From assembly GCA_949948735.1 (NCBI GenBank), contig CATLGV010000005.1, forward strand, positions 124,001-188,000: a stretch of DNA of 64,000 nt, written 5' to 3'. The translations under genes were made by a program, and so were the position numbers. This document shows, in pieces, positions 4,097 through 14,284 of the stretch. The notes under the pieces are model-generated. The model did not search any database. It saw only the letters and a program-made list of their open reading frames with translations, and had not been told where the DNA came from. Within the stretch, counting starts at the first letter, position 1. The number at the start of each line of letters is the position of its first letter. This stretch comes from an uncultured Lachnospiraceae bacterium. GTDB lineage: Bacteria; Bacillota; Clostridia; Lachnospirales; Lachnospiraceae.

Positions 4097-5872
4097 ATGA
4101 CTTTTTTTGATTTATTATCTATGGTAGGCGGACTTGCCCTGTTCTTGTACGGCATGCATATTCTGAGTGAGGGACTTGAGAAGCTGTCCGGCGGACGTCT
4201 GGAAAAGGTGCTTGAAAACCTGACAAACAGCAAGTGGAAGGCGGTGCTTCTGGGAGCGGGCGTTACGGCGGTTATCCAGTCCTCCTCGGCGACGACGGTG
4301 ATGGTCGTGGGTTTTGTAAACTCCGGCATTATGAAGCTTTCACAGGCAATCGGCGTGATTATGGGCGCGAATGTGGGAACGACGATTACCTCATGGGTGT
4401 TGAGCCTTTCGGGAATCCAGAGCGACAGCTTTGTGATACAGATGCTCAAGCCGACTTCCTTTTCGCCGATTCTCGCGATTATCGGCATTGTGTTTGTGAT
4501 GTTTGTAAAGAGCGGCAAAAAGCGGGACGTGGGAACGATTCTGGTGGGCTTTGCGATTTTAATGTTCGGCATGGACGCGATGTCGTCCGCGATGGAGCCG
4601 TTGAAAAATGTGCCGCAGTTTACCGGACTTTTTACGATGTTCCAAAACCCGCTGCTTGGCATGATCGTCGGCGCGCTGATCACGGCGGTCATCCAGTCCT
4701 CGTCGGCGTCCGTAGGTATTCTGCAGGCGCTGTGCGATACGGGAACGGTAAGCTATGCGGCGGCCGTGCCGATTATTATGGGACAGAATATCGGTACCTG
4801 CGTCACGGCGCTGATGTCGGGCGTCGGCGCGACCAAGAACGCAAAGCGTGCGGCGATTGTGCATCTGCTGTTTAACGTGCTGGGAACGGCGATCTTTATG
4901 TGCGTATTTTATCTGCTGAACGCGTTTATCCATTTTGAGTTTATGGAGCTTCCTGTAAACAGAGCGGGCATCGCGCTGGTGCACACAGGCTTTAATATTC
5001 TGGCGACGATGGTGCTGCTTCCGTTTTCAGGCCTGCTGGAGCGGCTGTCCCTTGTGCTGATTAAGCAGGACGAGGAGGAGGCAAAGCGCGCCGAGCAGCA
5101 GGCAAAGCTTGTGCGGATGGACGAGCGGTTTTTGAGTACGCCGTCCTTTGCGCTGGAGCAGGCCAATTCCCATGTCGTGGAGATGGCGCATATCACGCTG
5201 GATGCAGTCCGCGAGGCGGTCGTTACGCTGCAGGCCTATGACAAAAAGATCGTGGAGGAGGTCGAGCACAAGGAAAACCTGGTGGACCACTATGACGATG
5301 AAATCAGCAGCTATCTGGTAAAGCTTTCGAGTAAAAATCTGAGCGTGCGGGATTCGAGAAAGCTGGCCATGCTGCTGCACAGTATCGGGGATCTGGAGCG
5401 CATAGCGGATCATGCGATCAATATTGCGGATTCGGCGCGCGAGATGCACAAAAAGGAGCAGAGCTTTTCACCCAAGGCGCTGGAGGAGCTGGATATTTTC
5501 TCACAGGCAGTTGTCGATATTGTTGAGAGCGCTGTGTGGGTGCTGGAGACAGAGAATATGACGGGCGCTAAGGCGATGGAGCCGTTTGAGGAGGCCATCG
5601 ACACGCTTCATAAGGAGATCAAGAAGCGGCATACCAAGCGCCTGCGCAAGGGCAAATGTACGGCGGAGATGGGCTTTGTGCTCTCCGACATTACGAACAA
5701 TTATGAGCGGATTGCGGATCACTGCTCGAATCTTGCAATCAATGTCCTGCAGCTCTATGAGGACGAGACGCATGCGCACGAGTATGTCGACACGCTGCAA
5801 AAGGGCGAGGGCAGTGAATTTGACGTGCGGTACCACAATTATCTGAAGAAATACGAGCTGCCGGGAAAATAA
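4097..5872 (+). CDS. Na/Pi cotransporter family protein with C-terminal PhoU-like domain
   Basis: Inner-membrane protein of 591 residues in the NptA/YjbB class. The membrane half contains two inverted copies of the family signature, ITAVIQSSSA-like: TAVIQSSSATT near residue 58 and ITAVIQSSSASV near residue 200, each followed by a hydrophobic segment. The C-terminal ~240 residues are helical and PhoU-like, with the repeated motif L(E)RIADHAxN (GDLERIADHAINIADSA and NNYERIADHCSNLAINV). This arrangement imports or exports phosphate with Na+, with the PhoU domain as a probable regulator. The ATG at 4097 is chosen because AAGGAG at 4085-4090 is well spaced from it; a TTG at 4082 would overlap that site. 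A promoter precedes it and the gene appears monocistronic. Confidence 0.93.
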   Translation: MTFFDLLSMVGGLALFLYGMHILSEGLEKLSGGRLEKVLENLTNSKWKAVLLGAGVTAVIQSSSATTVMVVGFVNSGIMKLSQAIGVIMGANVGTTITSWVLSLSGIQSDSFVIQMLKPTSFSPILAIIGIVFVMFVKSGKKRDVGTILVGFAILMFGMDAMSSAMEPLKNVPQFTGLFTMFQNPLLGMIVGALITAVIQSSSASVGILQALCDTGTVSYAAAVPIIMGQNIGTCVTALMSGVGATKNAKRAAIVHLLFNVLGTAIFMCVFYLLNAFIHFEFMELPVNRAGIALVHTGFNILATMVLLPFSGLLERLSLVLIKQDEEEAKRAEQQAKLVRMDERFLSTPSFALEQANSHVVEMAHITLDAVREAVVTLQAYDKKIVEEVEHKENLVDHYDDEISSYLVKLSSKNLSVRDSRKLAMLLHSIGDLERIADHAINIADSAREMHKKEQSFSPKALEELDIFSQAVVDIVESAVWVLETENMTGAKAMEPFEEAIDTLHKEIKKRHTKRLRKGKCTAEMGFVLSDITNNYERIADHCSNLAINVLQLYEDETHAHEYVDTLQKGEGSEFDVRYHNYLKKYELPGK

Positions 5873-5963
5873 GCGGCAGCGTTTGAAATCGCACAAAAAC
5901 CCGTCCATATATCAGTGATTTTCGTTAAAATACACAAAATTCACGCATCCTGCGGATTTTAAG

Positions 5964-5992
5964 TTGTGCGGAAAAAAAATATACATTATAAT
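5964..5992 (+). promoter_or_regulatory. Probable sigma-A promoter of gdhA
   Basis: TTGTGC and a perfect TATAAT are separated by 17 bp, giving a leader of about 110 nt before gdhA. Confidence 0.6.
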
Positions 5993-6059
5993 ATAGATGT
6001 TGATTTTAGCGCATTGCAGTGCTAAACAAAAGATGCTGTGTCAGCAGTGTGAAACATAA

Positions 6060-7466
<1,407 letters not shown>

Positions 7467-7481
7467 ACAGAAGACAGATAA

Positions 7482-7508
7482 AATCGGGTGCGTCAGCACC
7501 CGATTTTT
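7482..7508. terminator. Bidirectional terminator between gdhA and the signalling operon
   Basis: Perfect 9-bp stem (ATCGGGTGC / GCACCCGAT) with a GTCA loop, A-run on the left and T-run on the right, so it can stop gdhA on plus and the kinase operon on minus. Confidence 0.9.
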
Positions 7509-7537
7509 ATGCGGTAGGAAGTTGTCACAGCAGTAGT

Positions 7538-10228
7538 CTATTCCCTCCCGCTCCTGCGGATAAACATCAATCCGAAAACGCCGACGCCGCAGTTGCTGGA
7601 TACGGTGGCGGAGGCCTTCTGGGTGATAATCTTCTCGAACTTCACATATTTTTCCACTTCCTCCAAAATCTCGTCAAGCTGGCGTACCGTACAGCCTGCG
7701 TAGGTCAGGAACAGAATGCGTGTGTCGATTTGTTTGCTGTGGTGAAGCAGCTTTTTGACATAGTGGCGGCGCACATGCTTCATATTGCCGATTTCAATTG
7801 TCCAGAGCTTCAGCTCGTTCTGCGCCATGCGCAGCACCGGATGGAGGTTCAGGCCGCTGCAGAGCTTATGAACCAGGCCGGTTATTTTGCCGTTGCGGTA
7901 CAGCGCTTCGGTATCCGGCACGAGGAAATTGGAGCATACACGGCTCCGGAAGGCCGTAAGCGCACTGCAGATTTCATCGACATCCTTTCCATCCTCCGCG
8001 AGCGCCGCGGCGTATAAAACGATCAGCCCGTGTCCGCTGCTGATATGCGTGGAATCGAATATTGTGACGTTGTCAAAGCTCCTGCTGGCCTGCTGCGCAT
8101 TCGGATAAGCGCCGCTTAGCGCGGTGGTCGCGGTAATGTGAATCACATGCTCGGCGGTTTCCAGCGTATCCGCAAAGAAATATTCGTATTCTGAGGGATC
8201 CGCGGTTGAGGAGCGCGCATAATTGCCCGTTGTTTTCAGGTAGTTGAGCAGGCTGTCGGAGGAGACCTCAAACAAATCGCAGAAACGCCCTTCTTTGGTA
8301 TGCACATAGCAGTACATCAGCCGGATCTGGTATTCCTCCAGCAAATCGCGCGGTAAATCGCAGATGCAGTCCGCGGTAATCGCAACCTTTCGTTTCCGTA
8401 CGCTCGTAATCTGGTTGATTGTAGCCTCCTGGGTATCGCCGGACCCATCGTCCAATGCGTATTCTATCAGCTCGGACGGCAGATATTTGAGCAGGCTTGC
8501 TTCCAGAAGCGCGGCGTTGATCGGCTTGGCGAGGTATCCGTCAAAGCCCATGTCCTGATAGACCTGTTCCGCGTTGGTCATGACGTTTGCCGTCAGGGCG
8601 ACGATGGGCGCCCGCTGGCAGAAGCCCTTTGTCTGGGCGCGTATTGCCTTTAGCGTCGCTTCCCCATCCATTTCCGGCATCATATGATCCATTAGAATAA
8701 TATGATAAAAGCTTTCCGCGGTGCGCTTGAGACATTCCCTTCCGCTCTCGGCAGTTTCAACCTTAATCTTCGTCCCGCGGAGAAGCTTGACAGCAACCAT
8801 ACGGTTCATATCGTTATCGTCCACGACCAGAATTCGGGCGTTTGGCGCCGTAAAGCACTGTCTGTACTTTGTGCGCCGGCCAAGCTGCTTTTGCGCCGCG
8901 AAATCAATAATGCCGATGGGCTGCGCATTCATAATCTGCTGCCTGATTTCTATCGTAAAGACGGAGCCTTTGTGATATACGCTGTCGACGGAGATTTTTC
9001 CGCCCATCATTTCGACAAGCTGCTTGGCGATGGTAAGGCCCAGGCCGGTTCCCTCGATATTCCGATTCTGGGTTTCGTCTATGCGCTTGAAGGAATGGAA
9101 GAGATCGTCCAGGCTCTCCTTGCGGATGCCGATACCCGTATCCGCGACGGAGATACGCAGCAGAATCTCGTTTGTACCAATGCGCTCGCCCTTTGCGGAT
9201 AAGGTAACGGAACCGGTCTCTGTGTACTTGACCGCATTGGTCAGCATATTGGTGATAATCTGCTTGATACGCACTTCGTCGCCGTAGAGCATGGACGGAA
9301 TATCGTGGTCAATATCGACTTTGAATTCCAGCTCCTTCTGATGCGCGCGTACCCAGATCAGGTTTACCAGGTCGCTGAACATGGAGCTGACCTCATACTG
9401 CGCCGGTACAATCTCCATCTTGCCGGACTCAAGCTTGGACAAATCCAGAATGTCGTTGATGGTGGTCAGCAGCATTTTGCTGGCATTCTGTATGTTAATG
9501 GCGTTTTCGGCGATTTCGTCCGAAATATCCTCCCGAAGGGTCATCTCGTTCAGACCGATAATGGTGTTAATCGGCGTGCGGATTTCATGGCTCATATTTG
9601 CGAAGAAGGTGTCCTTGGAGCGCGCAATCTGCTCGATTTCTTCCCGCTGGCGCTCGGCAAGGCGCCGCTCCTTGTCATAGGTGAAAAACTGCATTTTCAA
9701 CAGAAAGCCGATAAAGCAGCTTACAATGACCAGTGTGACAAAGGAATCCACAAAGCCGTAAAAGCGGTCCGGCGTCTCGGGAAAAAGCTGCGGGTATCGA
9801 TATGTGGCGGCATAGGAGGCAAAAAAGGAAGCCAGGGAGAGCAGCAGCGCGACGTAAAACGCCGTTCCCCGGAACAATACAAAGACGTATACAAGGCCCA
9901 GGACAAACCATACCGGCGCGCCGCTGTCCATGCCGCCGCTCAGGAAAAAGATAAGCGGAAAAAGAAGGACGTTCGAGGTCAGCACCAGCATCCAGGAGGC
10001 CAGCCGGACCTTATTATATTGAACGGTAATAAAAAGCGCGGCGCCGGATACAAGGCACATCGGCAGGAGTGTGATCAGGATGGCGGGCGGTGCGCCGAAC
10101 AGGGTGCGGCCCATGCTGATAACGGATGCGGCAAATGCCAGTATCAGGACAATCCGGTTCAGCCGCTGCTGAAAATCCAGCTGTTCATTGAGCAGTACTT
10201 TGAAAAAATGATGCAGTTTTTTTCTCAT
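7538..10228 (-). CDS. Hybrid histidine kinase / receiver fused to a C-terminal DegV (fatty-acid-binding) domain
   Basis: This 896-residue protein has an unusual order. Residues ~25-185 form about six membrane segments with no large extracellular loop. Residues ~200-430 are a HisKA/HATPase kinase (phospho-acceptor His214 in MSHEIRTPIN; N-box NMLTNAVKY ~327; G-boxes DTGIGI and GTGLGL). Residues ~464-585 are a receiver with acidic pair Asp470/471, phospho-acceptor Asp514 and Lys568. Residues ~613-892 are a full-length DegV/EDD domain: an ITADCICDLP start, the SSTADPS pocket strand, TALSGAYPNAQ, FDSTHISSGHG, LYRNGKITG, and a C-terminal CGVGVFGLMF. DegV proteins (FakB) bind fatty acids for the kinase FakA. 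By inference the DegV part is either an acyl-lipid sensor or an output. It is the last gene of a three-gene minus-strand operon. Confidence 0.88.
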   Translation of the reverse strand: MRKKLHHFFKVLLNEQLDFQQRLNRIVLILAFAASVISMGRTLFGAPPAILITLLPMCLVSGAALFITVQYNKVRLASWMLVLTSNVLLFPLIFFLSGGMDSGAPVWFVLGLVYVFVLFRGTAFYVALLLSLASFFASYAATYRYPQLFPETPDRFYGFVDSFVTLVIVSCFIGFLLKMQFFTYDKERRLAERQREEIEQIARSKDTFFANMSHEIRTPINTIIGLNEMTLREDISDEIAENAINIQNASKMLLTTINDILDLSKLESGKMEIVPAQYEVSSMFSDLVNLIWVRAHQKELEFKVDIDHDIPSMLYGDEVRIKQIITNMLTNAVKYTETGSVTLSAKGERIGTNEILLRISVADTGIGIRKESLDDLFHSFKRIDETQNRNIEGTGLGLTIAKQLVEMMGGKISVDSVYHKGSVFTIEIRQQIMNAQPIGIIDFAAQKQLGRRTKYRQCFTAPNARILVVDDNDMNRMVAVKLLRGTKIKVETAESGRECLKRTAESFYHIILMDHMMPEMDGEATLKAIRAQTKGFCQRAPIVALTANVMTNAEQVYQDMGFDGYLAKPINAALLEASLLKYLPSELIEYALDDGSGDTQEATINQITSVRKRKVAITADCICDLPRDLLEEYQIRLMYCYVHTKEGRFCDLFEVSSDSLLNYLKTTGNYARSSTADPSEYEYFFADTLETAEHVIHITATTALSGAYPNAQQASRSFDNVTIFDSTHISSGHGLIVLYAAALAEDGKDVDEICSALTAFRSRVCSNFLVPDTEALYRNGKITGLVHKLCSGLNLHPVLRMAQNELKLWTIEIGNMKHVRRHYVKKLLHHSKQIDTRILFLTYAGCTVRQLDEILEEVEKYVKFEKIITQKASATVSSNCGVGVFGLMFIRRSGRE

Positions 10229-10256
10229 GGTCGTGTACCTCCAGACTTTCCTGTCG

Positions 10257-13208
10257 TCATATCGTGCCTCCGGTTATCTTTTCTTCCCATAAATCCAGTA
10301 CGTCGGAGGCGCCAAGGAAGTCAAAATCATTGATTCGGGTCTGAATCTCGGCTGTCATCTCCGATAAGCTCAGGCCGTGATAACAGTGCGTTCCTAGCTG
10401 CTGCAAAATCGCATCCAGCCCTTCGCCCTCAAAGCTGTCCAGCTTTTCCCGCAGGGGTGCGATCAGTGCCGTAAAGGCTTTGCTGTCCGTATCCGGCAGC
10501 GTCTGCTTTGACACGGGAGCAGAAAACGGCGATGCCGCGGCCGGTGGATTTACTGTCTGCGGTGCGCAGGAGGCCTTTGCGGAATCGTGACAGCCGTCGG
10601 GATAAAGAAAGGTGTTTGCGGCGAGTGCATGCAGGAGCGCCTCATGCCTTTCCAGCAATTCTTCATGGTGCTCCAGAATGTAGTCCACGCGGTTTTCTTT
10701 TCCGGCCATTTCCAGCTTCAGCGCCAGCTCGGCCAGCTCGTTTGCCCCGATGCCCTTGGAATTGCTTTTGAGGGCGTGCACCGTAATCACATAGTTCTTC
10801 CAATCCTGATTGCGGAAGAATTCGGAAAGCTGCTGATTGCGTTTGCCGCCCTCCGCATGGTAAATCAGAATGATCTCCCTCAGCCCTTCCCTGTCGCCGC
10901 AGTAGGAGATTCCCTGCCGGATATTGATGCCGGCCATTTCAAGCGCGTCGAGCGCGGCGGTGTCGTCTGCCGGAGCCGGAAAATCAGACGCGGCGTCGAT
11001 GCCGGCGGCAGCCGTGTCGTCTGTGGGCATGGCGGGAGGGGCGGAAATGGGGCCGGCAGCGGTACCGGGTGTATCCGTATCCGACATGCCGGGAAGCGGG
11101 GCGTCCTCCTCCGGGACCGCAAGCTGTTTGCGCACCGGGATATAACGGCGCAGCATGCGTTCAAGGACGCTCAGCTCAATCGGTTTGGCAATAAAGTCGT
11201 CAAAGCCCTCCTCGATAAACATTTCGCGCGCGCCGCCGATTGCGTTTGCGGTAAAGGCGATAACGGACAGCGACTGAAAATAAGCGCCGGGCTTCTGACG
11301 GATTTTGTGCAGGGTCTCTACGCCGTCCATATCCGGCATCATATGATCGAGAAAGACGCAGTCATACTCCATGGAATCAAGCTTATGCAGGGCCTCCTGC
11401 CCGCTGCTGGCCATGGAGACCTTGATTTGGTAGGGCAGCAGCAGCCTTGCCATAACCTTCAGGTTCATGGCGTTGTCATCCACAATAAGTACCCTGGCCT
11501 CGGGAGCGATAAAGCGATGCTTCAGGTCCGGATGCTGTGCGTCCCGCTGAAGCACCTTCTGGCCGTTGAATACCGCCGCGATGGACAGCACGGTGAATGG
11601 CTTGTAAATACGCAGCATATTGCTTCGGACATGCGGCTCCTGGTCGTAATCCAATATCAGCACAACGGTAAGCTCGGCGGCAAGATGCTCGAAAAAGGCT
11701 CTGTCCTCGCAGTATTCGTCCCAGCTGATAAAAATATGGGAAAAGTTTTCATGCTCAATGCGCCGCTTAAGCTCGGAAAGGTTCTGACAGATGCGGAACA
11801 GGATGCCAAACTGCTCGGCCATGTGACGGATGCACTTTTCGTAGCCCTCCCGGACAATGGAAAAGTTATATTTGTCCATGTTGATATAACATGCGGCGAA
11901 CAGATGGCCCTTGTTTTTGATGGAGACAATTGGCGTCTCATCGAGGACCTTCTGCGGAATCGTGCATTGGAATTCCGTTCCGCTGCCGGGCGTGCTCTCT
12001 ACGGTGATAAAGCCGCCCATATTGCGGACAAGCGCCTGCGTGATCGAGAGCCCCAGGCCGATGCCGCCCTCCTCGCGGTTGCGTTTGGAATTGAGCTGGC
12101 TGAAGCTGGTAAAGATTTTTTCCATATCTGCCTGCTTCATGCCGATGCCCGAATCCCGGATGCTGATCATCAGGTTGATACCGTAAAGCTCTCTGCGGCT
12201 CTTGATGCGCAGGACAACGCCACCCTCTCTGGTAAACTTAATCGCGTTTTCCAGCAGGTTCATCACGATGCGGCGGAGCTTCTGCTCGTCCCCGACCAGA
12301 TTGCTGGGCAGATTGGCGTCGCAGTCGACAATCAGCTCCAGCTTTTTGCCGTTTTCCATAGTCAGGGCCATATTGATAATGTCGGTGATGGTGGAGGTAA
12401 TATTGTAGCTCTCCTCCGCAAGCTCCATCTTGCCGCTTTCCAGCTCGGAGAAGTCGAGGATATTGCTGACGGTGGAGAGAAGATTGCGTCCTGCGGTCTG
12501 GATGTCGACAATGTCGCGGCGGACGCTTTCGGGAAGATTTTCCTGTAAAATAGCCTCGCTCATGCCGCAGACCGCATTGATGGGCGTGCGGATTTCGTGC
12601 GATATATTGACCATAAAATCGTCCTTGCTCTGTTCTACCAGCTCCAGCTCGTGGATGTTTTCCAAAAGCTTGTCGCTGGTTTCCTGACGGATGCGCTGGG
12701 TGATCCATGTGACAAGCAGAATCGCGTAGGCGGAGAGGACGTGCAGAACCAGCCGGATGATATCGTTGGCGGAGGCAATTGCGATTGTCTGTGCGACAAA
12801 AATGTGATAGAGAAAGACCGCCGTACTGAAAATCAGGCTGATCAGGAGGATGTCCGAGATACAGAAGGTGCCCAGCAGCACGATTAAGGCCAGCATGGTA
12901 GACAGCATGGAGGTAAAGCTGTGCGAATGCACGGCGTAAATGAAAAAGTTAATCCAAGCCAGTATGGAGAGGCACTTGGCCCGGAAGACGTAGCTGCGGT
13001 ATCCCTTTACGGTCACAAACCAGCCGGCGGCAATTGCGGCAAGGATAAGCTCCTTTGCAAAAATGCTCCAGTCCAGCAGAAGGGACGAGACGAACATTGC
13101 AAGGGAGAAAACGGTAAATATGGCCAGAACAATCCGTTCCAGCTTTTGATTCGTTTTATGGTTCTGAAATTGTTTTTCTTCCAAAGTAAATCCCCATTCC
13201 TTTCTCAT
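10257..13208 (-). CDS. Hybrid sensor histidine kinase with receiver and HPt domains
   Basis: A 983-residue multi-step phosphorelay kinase. Residues ~24-175 hold about six membrane segments. HisKA/HATPase spans ~190-420, with His204 in ISHEIRTPIN, N-box MNLLENAIKF, and G-boxes DSGIGM and GIGLGL. Residues ~433-550 look like a degenerate receiver-like spacer without the acidic pocket. A true receiver follows at ~571-690 (Asp577/578, phospho-acceptor Asp621, Lys675). After an Ala/Pro/Asp-rich linker (~700-750) comes an HPt domain with the motif HALKSNS and phospho-His811. The C-terminal tail is helical. It starts 8 bp after the HD-GYP regulator stop and is followed 28 bp later by the DegV-fused kinase, so all three should be one transcript. 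The ligand is not visible. Confidence 0.93.
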   Translation of the reverse strand: MRKEWGFTLEEKQFQNHKTNQKLERIVLAIFTVFSLAMFVSSLLLDWSIFAKELILAAIAAGWFVTVKGYRSYVFRAKCLSILAWINFFIYAVHSHSFTSMLSTMLALIVLLGTFCISDILLISLIFSTAVFLYHIFVAQTIAIASANDIIRLVLHVLSAYAILLVTWITQRIRQETSDKLLENIHELELVEQSKDDFMVNISHEIRTPINAVCGMSEAILQENLPESVRRDIVDIQTAGRNLLSTVSNILDFSELESGKMELAEESYNITSTITDIINMALTMENGKKLELIVDCDANLPSNLVGDEQKLRRIVMNLLENAIKFTREGGVVLRIKSRRELYGINLMISIRDSGIGMKQADMEKIFTSFSQLNSKRNREEGGIGLGLSITQALVRNMGGFITVESTPGSGTEFQCTIPQKVLDETPIVSIKNKGHLFAACYINMDKYNFSIVREGYEKCIRHMAEQFGILFRICQNLSELKRRIEHENFSHIFISWDEYCEDRAFFEHLAAELTVVLILDYDQEPHVRSNMLRIYKPFTVLSIAAVFNGQKVLQRDAQHPDLKHRFIAPEARVLIVDDNAMNLKVMARLLLPYQIKVSMASSGQEALHKLDSMEYDCVFLDHMMPDMDGVETLHKIRQKPGAYFQSLSVIAFTANAIGGAREMFIEEGFDDFIAKPIELSVLERMLRRYIPVRKQLAVPEEDAPLPGMSDTDTPGTAAGPISAPPAMPTDDTAAAGIDAASDFPAPADDTAALDALEMAGINIRQGISYCGDREGLREIILIYHAEGGKRNQQLSEFFRNQDWKNYVITVHALKSNSKGIGANELAELALKLEMAGKENRVDYILEHHEELLERHEALLHALAANTFLYPDGCHDSAKASCAPQTVNPPAAASPFSAPVSKQTLPDTDSKAFTALIAPLREKLDSFEGEGLDAILQQLGTHCYHGLSLSEMTAEIQTRINDFDFLGASDVLDLWEEKITGGTI

Positions 13209-13216
13209 GCGGTAAT

Positions 13217-14284
13217 TTAAGCGATGCCGAGGACTTGCTTAAGCCTCGGGAGCATTTCCATAAATACGTCGATGATAACAGGGTCAAACTGTGTCCCGCG
13301 TCCCTCCGACATAATCTGCATAATCCGTTCGATAGGGCGAATCGGGGGCTTGTAGCAGCGTTCCTCATACAGCGCGTCAAAAACGTCCGCAACCGACATA
13401 ATGCGCGCAGCCAGAGGGATGCTGTCTCCGGAAAGCCCTGTAGGGTAGCCGGAGCCGTCCCAGCGCTCGTGGTGGTACATGGCGATGTCCTCCACAATCT
13501 GTACATAATCGGCGTCTTCCATGTCGCCGATGATTGTGTGCAGGATTTTGCGGCTGCAGGTTGTGTGCAGCTTCATTGCGTCAAACTCCTCCGGCGTCAG
13601 CTTTCCGGGCTTTTGCAGAATGGCGTCCGGTATTTTGATTTTGCCGACGTCGTGCAGGGGCGCGGCCTTGCAGAGATCCTCTATGTATTCCGGCGTCAGC
13701 TCCGCCTCAAAGAGCTTTCGTCTGTGCAGCTCATCCGCGATCATCCGCACATACGTCTGTGTGTTCTTGACGTGCTTTCCGGTGCTGCCGTCCCGGCTCT
13801 CAATCAGATTCGCCATGCCCACGATGACCGAATCCTGAATCATGCTGATTCGCCGTGCGTCCTCGGTAATTTTTTCGGCCTGCTCCCGTACCATGTTTTC
13901 CAGATTGCTCCGGTATTGCGACAGCTCGATGGTCTTGCCTACGCGGCTGAGCAGAATGTCCGGAATAAAGGGCTTGACGACAAAATCCATCGCGCCTACC
14001 CGGAAGCAGCGGATTTCAGTCTCGGCCAGGCTGTCCGCAGTCAGGAAGATGACGGGAATGGTTTTCGTTTTTTCATCGCGCTGCAGCTGCTCCATTACGG
14101 CAAAGCCGTCCGGATCCGGCATGTTGATATCGAGCAGTATCAGATCCGGGCGGTTGTTCTCCAGATATTTCAGGGCTGCCGTGCCCGAATTGCACGCTGC
14201 AATGCGGTAGTACGGCAAAAGAATTTTCTGCGCAAGCGTCAGGTTGGTCTTATCATCGTCAACAACCAAAATAATATTCTTCAT
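13217..14284 (-). CDS. Response regulator with HD-GYP cyclic-di-GMP phosphodiesterase domain
   Basis: Protein of 355 residues, an RpfG-like layout. Residues 1-120 are a receiver (acidic Asp9/Asp10, phospho-acceptor Asp52, Lys104). A helical linker leads to an HD-GYP domain at ~150-350 with all expected metal and signature residues: His211-Asp212 in HDVGKIKIPD, HHERWDGSGYP at 271-281, and the downstream ADVFDAL. Members cleave cyclic di-GMP, so the likely role is turning kinase signals from the two downstream hybrid kinases into a second-messenger change. It is the first gene of the minus-strand operon and starts beside a divergently transcribed gene with a sigma-D-type promoter. Confidence 0.95.
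   Translation of the reverse strand: MKNIILVVDDDKTNLTLAQKILLPYYRIAACNSGTAALKYLENNRPDLILLDINMPDPDGFAVMEQLQRDEKTKTIPVIFLTADSLAETEIRCFRVGAMDFVVKPFIPDILLSRVGKTIELSQYRSNLENMVREQAEKITEDARRISMIQDSVIVGMANLIESRDGSTGKHVKNTQTYVRMIADELHRRKLFEAELTPEYIEDLCKAAPLHDVGKIKIPDAILQKPGKLTPEEFDAMKLHTTCSRKILHTIIGDMEDADYVQIVEDIAMYHHERWDGSGYPTGLSGDSIPLAARIMSVADVFDALYEERCYKPPIRPIERIMQIMSEGRGTQFDPVIIDVFMEMLPRLKQVLGIA

Follow-up and report, generated by a model that had tools for sequence, protein, structure and literature searches.

Hybrid histidine kinases such as BarA, GacS, and RetS are built on a HisKA-HATPase-REC core, and in the RetS-GacS-LadS multikinase network several hybrid kinases are arranged around few Hpt domains. 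FakB and DegV proteins (PF02645, TIGR00762; PDB 2dt8, 5uto, 4x9x, and 6nr1) form a separate family. According to the passages on FakB1 in PMC8892158 and PMC9136124, its fatty-acid carboxylate is gripped by Thr62, Ser95, Ser171, and His270, the Fak kinase reaction requires Arg173, binding to FakA and bilayers requires Arg205, and both arginines are called completely conserved among FakBs. In the staphylococcal SaeRS system, the activity of a kinase without a large sensor loop depends on cellular fatty acid, as the SaeS passages of PMC5539427 describe. No description of a histidine kinase fused to DegV was found in the open-licence full-text literature; domain databases may list the architecture uncommented. 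The DegV passages of PMC3146951, PMC12688256, and PMC9912610 describe no such fusion.

We scrutinized a locus in the window (the whole 64,000-nucleotide stretch analysed, positions 124,001 to 188,000 of contig CATLGV010000005.1 from an uncultured Lachnospiraceae bacterium), where three close minus-strand genes, separated by gaps of 8 and 28 bases, encode in succession a REC-HD response regulator, a partner kinase, and a kinase-DegV fusion.

7480..7507, minus strand: terminator-like hairpin of 12 pairs just 3' of the fusion gene (consensus match only)
7538..10228, minus strand: HK-REC-DegV fusion gene, 896 aa, one unbroken frame (ATG at 10228, stop at 7538)
7556..8389, minus strand: DegV domain (PF02645), residues 614-891, apparently repurposed, with Lys781, Ile813, and Asn879 at the positions of FakB1 Arg173, Arg205, and His270
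8399..8452, minus strand: flexible or disordered linker, residues 593-610 (pLDDT < 50 in the model)
8498..8833, minus strand: receiver (Response_reg), residues 466-577, with Asp514 at 8687-8689 (Pfam, E 5.4e-21)
8939..9283, minus strand: HATPase_c, residues 316-430, catalytic residues retained (Pfam, E 5.2e-26)
9422..9616, minus strand: HisKA, residues 205-269, with phospho-acceptor His214 at 9587-9589 (Pfam, E 1.1e-15)
9695..10174, minus strand: membrane part, residues 19-178, the least conserved portion of the fusion protein (AlphaFold2 model and hydropathy)
10257..13208, minus strand: partner hybrid kinase, 983 aa, with HisKA 195-259, HATPase_c 306-419, receiver 573-686, and Hpt 782-858 (Pfam)
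10635..10865, minus strand: Hpt of the partner, the only one detected in the pair, retaining its active-site His (family model)
13217..14284, minus strand: REC-HD (HD-GYP type) response regulator of 355 aa, at the head of an apparent three-gene operon (Pfam)

The kinase and the DegV domain are each of a known kind. With FakB and DegV proteins the fusion shares the complete domain and its predicted fold; unlike them, it places that domain behind a hybrid kinase, has changed residues at the Arg173, Arg205, and His270 positions, and carries a tail of its own. With BarA, GacS, and RetS it shares the kinase core, here with Hpt in the neighbouring gene, but it has DegV after the receiver; among the NCBIfam matches listed, no equivalog cut-off was reached (BarA, for example, 312.6 of 890 bits). 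The SaeS kinase, in contrast, has two membrane helices and the fatty-acid effect is placed in its membrane anchor, with no DegV mentioned in those passages (PMC5539427).

The earlier note proposed that a full DegV domain of ~280 residues is joined in frame behind a membrane hybrid kinase, and this was borne out in a single frame. The match to PF02645 spans profile positions 1-279 of 280 (Pfam, fusion protein, E 1.1e-44), and the domain scores 160.9 bits in TIGR00762 (NCBIfam) against a curated cut-off of 99.7. At E <= 0.001, 21 distinct PDB sequences match (phmmer), bearing the names DegV, FakB, fat-acid-binding, or hypothetical, with 2dt8 the best (E 6.4e-21). The note's intact His214, HATPase boxes, and Asp514 were likewise confirmed: His214, Asn327, Asn331, Asp363, Gly365, Gly367, Gly393, Gly395, Gly397, Asp470, Asp471, Asp514, and Lys568 are invariant in 90 of 90 aligned fusions, and position 546 is Thr in 83 and Ser in seven. 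Judged by these residues (phospho-acceptor His, N and G boxes, receiver Asp and Lys), the fusion is a hybrid histidine kinase. The absence of a large sensor loop, also claimed, holds by the model (six helices, starting at residue 19) and by the hydropathy scan (five segments), the loops being short. The one omission found in the note is the strand; the fusion frame is on the minus strand.

The same domain order recurs in other genomes. We collected 89 further fusions on other contigs, mostly from Lachnospiraceae, giving 90 with that of the window; the relatives are the best 80 of 594 listed plus loci from genome searches, so the sample is biased toward the window's kind. Kinase and DegV matches were found in 93 frames; of these, L005 and L086 are the window's own fusion, counted once, and a truncated frame (L054) and a broken copy (L088) were left out. 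The latter, in genome G019, is an 86% identical fusion interrupted by two stop codons. Another record (L007) is titled Alistipes (Bacteroidota), groups with Lachnospiraceae rows, and is probably mis-binned. A whole-protein search of 60 genomes returned full-length matches in 12, all within the window's genus (12 of 36, own genome included), one of them being the interrupted copy in G019; fused frames longer than 700 aa occurred in 9 of 391 genomes of a class sample, six of the window's family and three of one genus of another family, and fused frames in 3 of 398 genomes of a phylum sample, all of the window's family, these absences being weak because few candidates were scored per genome (at most 15 in the 60-genome search, at most six in the class and phylum samples) and many genomes are incomplete.

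A tree was built from 39 free DegV domains and 43 of the 90 fused ones (82 in all); every fused domain in it fell on one side of one branch (100/100), with a stem of 0.95 changes per column, and the six free DegVs nearest to them end in a His-Cys-Gly-Pro motif. The placement of all sampled fused domains in a single group fits, as far as a sequence tree can tell, a one-time capture of DegV by a hybrid kinase. An assembly error, or chance read-through of two genes, could be suspected in a draft genome of 68 contigs; given the 89 fusions on separate contigs and the single group formed by the 43 sampled, we rejected this as virtually inconceivable.

Sequence divergence was uneven along the fusion. 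Between the window and L087 (85% identical), dN/dS was 0.18 in the membrane part, 0.034 in the kinase, 0.038 in the receiver, and 0.08 in DegV, and a second close pair gave 0.21, 0.023, 0.057, and 0.082, respectively; of two more distant pairs, one gave a DegV dN/dS of 0.119 and the other was saturated. Mean pairwise identity in the fusion family was 0.26, 0.62, 0.57, and 0.39 for the same four portions. Together these values indicate that selection maintains DegV, more loosely than the kinase but more tightly than the membrane part.

An AlphaFold2 run on the 90-row family alignment (mean pLDDT 82.3, pTM 0.50) predicted membrane helices, a long DHp helix pair, CA, REC, the disordered linker, and a confident DegV domain (pLDDT mostly 78-93); at this low pTM, the model does not fix where DegV sits against the kinase. 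The DegV portion superposed on FakB and DegV crystal structures, including fatty-acid-loaded chains, with target TM 0.82-0.90 among the 50 Foldseek matches listed, and the kinase portion matched ShkA, GacS, and RetS. In the model, then, the domain keeps the DegV/FakB fold.

Residues required for FakB function were largely replaced. For comparison, a panel of 33 free DegVs was assembled from the four of the window's own genome and the best PF02645 match in each of 29 others, a choice that favours typical DegVs. At the Arg173 position, Arg was found in 33/33 free DegVs versus 31/90 fusions (Lys in 21; Lys781 in the window); at the Arg205 position, in 31/33 versus 1/90, the fusions being mostly hydrophobic there (Ile813). 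His occupies the His270 position in 30/33 free DegVs and one of the 90 fusions, 82 of which have Asn (Asn879). At least two of these three hallmarks are kept in 32 of 33 free DegVs versus none of the fusions, 57 of which keep none and 33 one. Ser is found at the Ser95 position in 54/90 fusions, including the window (Ser705), versus 33/33 free DegVs, and at the Thr62 position in 65/90 (Ser673 in the window), where free DegVs have Thr (26) or Ser (7). The window has Asn779 at the Ser171 position, which is no test of FakB membership since 31/33 free DegVs have Gly there. By alignment, the Arg173 and Arg205 pair of FakBs is missing, and the carboxylate network, with Ser95 present and His270 replaced in the window, appears lacking overall.

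Among 20 positions conserved at >= 85% in free DegVs, only three (two glycines and one proline) are so in fusions, while 30 positions are >= 80% conserved in fusions with a residue that fewer than half of free DegVs have; we read this as a change of job rather than decay. The fusions also share a conserved SSNCGxGTFGL-like tail. Small residues occur at the FakB1 acyl-tunnel positions (S730 in 88/90; T, S, or C766 in 85/90), which were matched by hand from phmmer alignments, the match to Ala121 being off by one in numbering. That DegV is well preserved although its ferrying residues are gone suggests that the domain was turned into an integral switch or sensor within a signalling relay.

Unlike the RetS-GacS-LadS network, two kinases are adjacent here in every locus with upstream sequence (88/88), one of them carrying DegV. 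The kinase query matches every one of the 88 partner frames, in 78 of them over its kinase part; several frames are cut short. The partner's Hpt in the window scores 23.3 bits in Pfam, just below the cut-off of 24.6, and 107.6 bits in the family model. Across the 90 loci, Hpt is found on the partner and not the fusion in 70, on the fusion behind DegV and not the partner in 17, on both in none, and on neither in one, with two at contig ends; in the 73 fusions outside those 17, no Hpt was found behind DegV. The active-site His is kept in 67/70 partner Hpts; the three loci that have lost it there, and the single locus with no Hpt on either kinase, all encode Hpt on another protein nearby, with the His intact. 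An Hpt with its active-site His is thus encoded in 88/88 loci (partner 67, fusion C terminus 17, separate protein 4). Two of these four exceptions are near-copies. By Pfam, the separate proteins of L051 and L059 are Hpt only and those of L074 and L049 also have a receiver; the L049 contig stops within the Hpt, for which Pfam makes no call. Further Hpt proteins are common nearby (26 matches in 20 neighbourhoods, some being tandem partners themselves), so any one Hpt is presumed to serve the pair, and to serve it exclusively.

The 17 Hpt-bearing fusions form one clade (SH-aLRT 100), pointing to one event. We rejected a simple move of Hpt from partner to fusion, as the Hpts of these 17 fusions fall among those of other proteins (97/98); their position apart from the partner's fits replacement better, in a tree that is poorly resolved and whose bootstrap is unsettled. 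Several loci depart in layout. L051 and L059 carry two kinase/fusion pairs in tandem, with the Hpt protein between the pairs and the His lost from the second partner's Hpt. In L128 (G145, 5035-11140), a layout of the separate-Hpt type, a partner without a Pfam Hpt (a decayed one is visible by eye) lies beside a REC-Hpt protein and the fusion frame is cut by a run of N. The partner in L019 (7478-10227) is two overlapping frames, through a frameshift, either in the gene itself or in its assembly. The window's own genome also encodes an HK-REC hybrid of 594 aa without DegV (L127, G000:C6:22205-22690), whose membrane part is related to that of the fusion (25% identity).

Genes adjacent to the pair frequently encode signalling proteins. 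Directly upstream (n = 61, comprising the window and 60 of 62 frames found, with two giant frames excluded and the L019 entry being the first part of that locus's partner kinase), receivers were found in 41, HD domains of the HD-GYP type in 26, GGDEF in five, and MCP signalling domains in six; directly downstream (n = 54 of 60), receivers were found in 15, EAL in three, and GGDEF in two. A separate BLAST count placed an HD-GYP regulator upstream in 26 of the 67 loci with room for one; its absence from the other 41 makes it common, not universal. In L022, L024, L033, L040, and L047, the kinase pair lies behind a chemosensory cluster, confirmed by Pfam in L024 (CheR, CheB, receiver, CheA, CheW, and MCP) and assigned by BLAST clustering in the others, where not every member is present in each. 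Upstream of the pair in L066 (4162-7368) and L083 (61-2727), a [FeFe]-hydrogenase domain is fused to HisKA-HATPase-REC-Hpt, and L083 also has a REC-GGDEF protein. A promoter scan was uninformative (6 found versus 5.6 expected). No lipid gene recurred beside the locus among the first 25 of 49 and the first 25 of 79 adjacent-gene Pfam families. L061 has two putative fatty-acid-synthesis genes downstream, to which no neighbour frame of any other locus was related.

We propose, at a probability of roughly one half, that the fusion belongs, as one of two kinases, to a membrane-bound phosphorelay in which an in-line, repurposed DegV domain regulates the relay, perhaps by sensing a lipid-like ligand. 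Phosphate would pass from His214 to Asp514, on to Hpt, and then to a nearby response regulator, in the window one of the HD-GYP type that would probably promote cyclic-di-GMP breakdown. DegV, on a flexible linker behind the receiver, would act as a cytosolic regulatory module whose ligand-bound form may alter kinase, phosphatase, or receiver activity; that ligand would most likely be hydrophobic or amphipathic, held unlike the fatty acid of FakB. We advance more tentatively the fuller picture of a captured fatty-acid ferry that serves as sensor of a lipid or other small molecule and gates a two-kinase, shared-Hpt relay with cyclic-di-GMP and chemosensory outputs in gut Lachnospiraceae.

How the DegV domain contributes is the point on which the alternatives differ. 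The order of REC followed by DegV resembles a response regulator with its output domain, and the earlier note had considered an acyl-binding output under receiver control; a FakA-like gene in the genome and Arg at the Arg173 position in 31 fusions could be taken to favour a FakB-like carrier whose loading or delivery to FakA depends on receiver phosphorylation. Arg205 and His270, however, each persist in a single fusion, and the two arginines are required in FakB1 for the Fak reaction and FakA binding (PMC8892158, PMC9136124). The one FakA-like gene, moreover, lies beside a free DegV (of the five DegV matches in this genome, four are free), away from the fusion locus. In 17 fusions, Hpt follows DegV, which is thus in line there and not the last domain, and this position between receiver and Hpt makes regulation preferable to output. 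We therefore rejected the carrier role, which is highly improbable; the fusion that the note described stands as real, conserved, and of DegV/FakB fold, without its acyl-carrier reading.

Direct sensing of fatty acid in FakB fashion, for lipid homeostasis, draws on the DegV fold, on the membrane location of the kinase, and on the inhibition of SaeS by free fatty acids, where the membrane anchor is implicated in the passages of PMC5539427; with the carboxylate network so altered and lipid genes not recurring among the adjacent families listed, we consider it doubtful. Somewhat less so, though still unlikely, is a ligand-free DegV, a dead FakB scaffold that serves as an interaction or dimerisation platform, joining the kinases or placing receiver and Hpt. 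Ligand-network and docking residues are lost, several of the 30 fusion-only conserved positions are aromatic and could be contacts, and distances among fusions track those among partners (76 pairs, r = 0.765, a value reached in none of 1000 permutations, shared species history uncorrected). Sensor domains are usually N-terminal to the kinase core, which counts against DegV as sensor, as do Asn in place of His and the loss of Ser95 in 36 of 90 fusions, with which an empty structural domain is equally compatible. The entire predicted fold is retained, however, and positions of the carboxylate network are among those with conserved changes (Asn879, Ser673). As these changes include the polar end of the pocket, ligand sensing is preferred to scaffolding, only narrowly. 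A sensor role for DegV thus survives the comparison of sequences, with the identity of its ligand putative.

If true, the more tentative, fuller picture would bring two-component systems an input domain of a new class. A regulatory DegV would give a part in signalling to a family of proteins known chiefly for carrying acyl groups. Because an Hpt is encoded in the locus of every pair examined, the wiring lends itself to direct tests in vitro, and the Asn-Cys-Gly residues conserved in the tail are precise targets for tests of ligand binding. For gut bacteria, the regulatory reading would provide a defined route coupling intracellular, possibly lipid, state to a phosphorelay and a second messenger.
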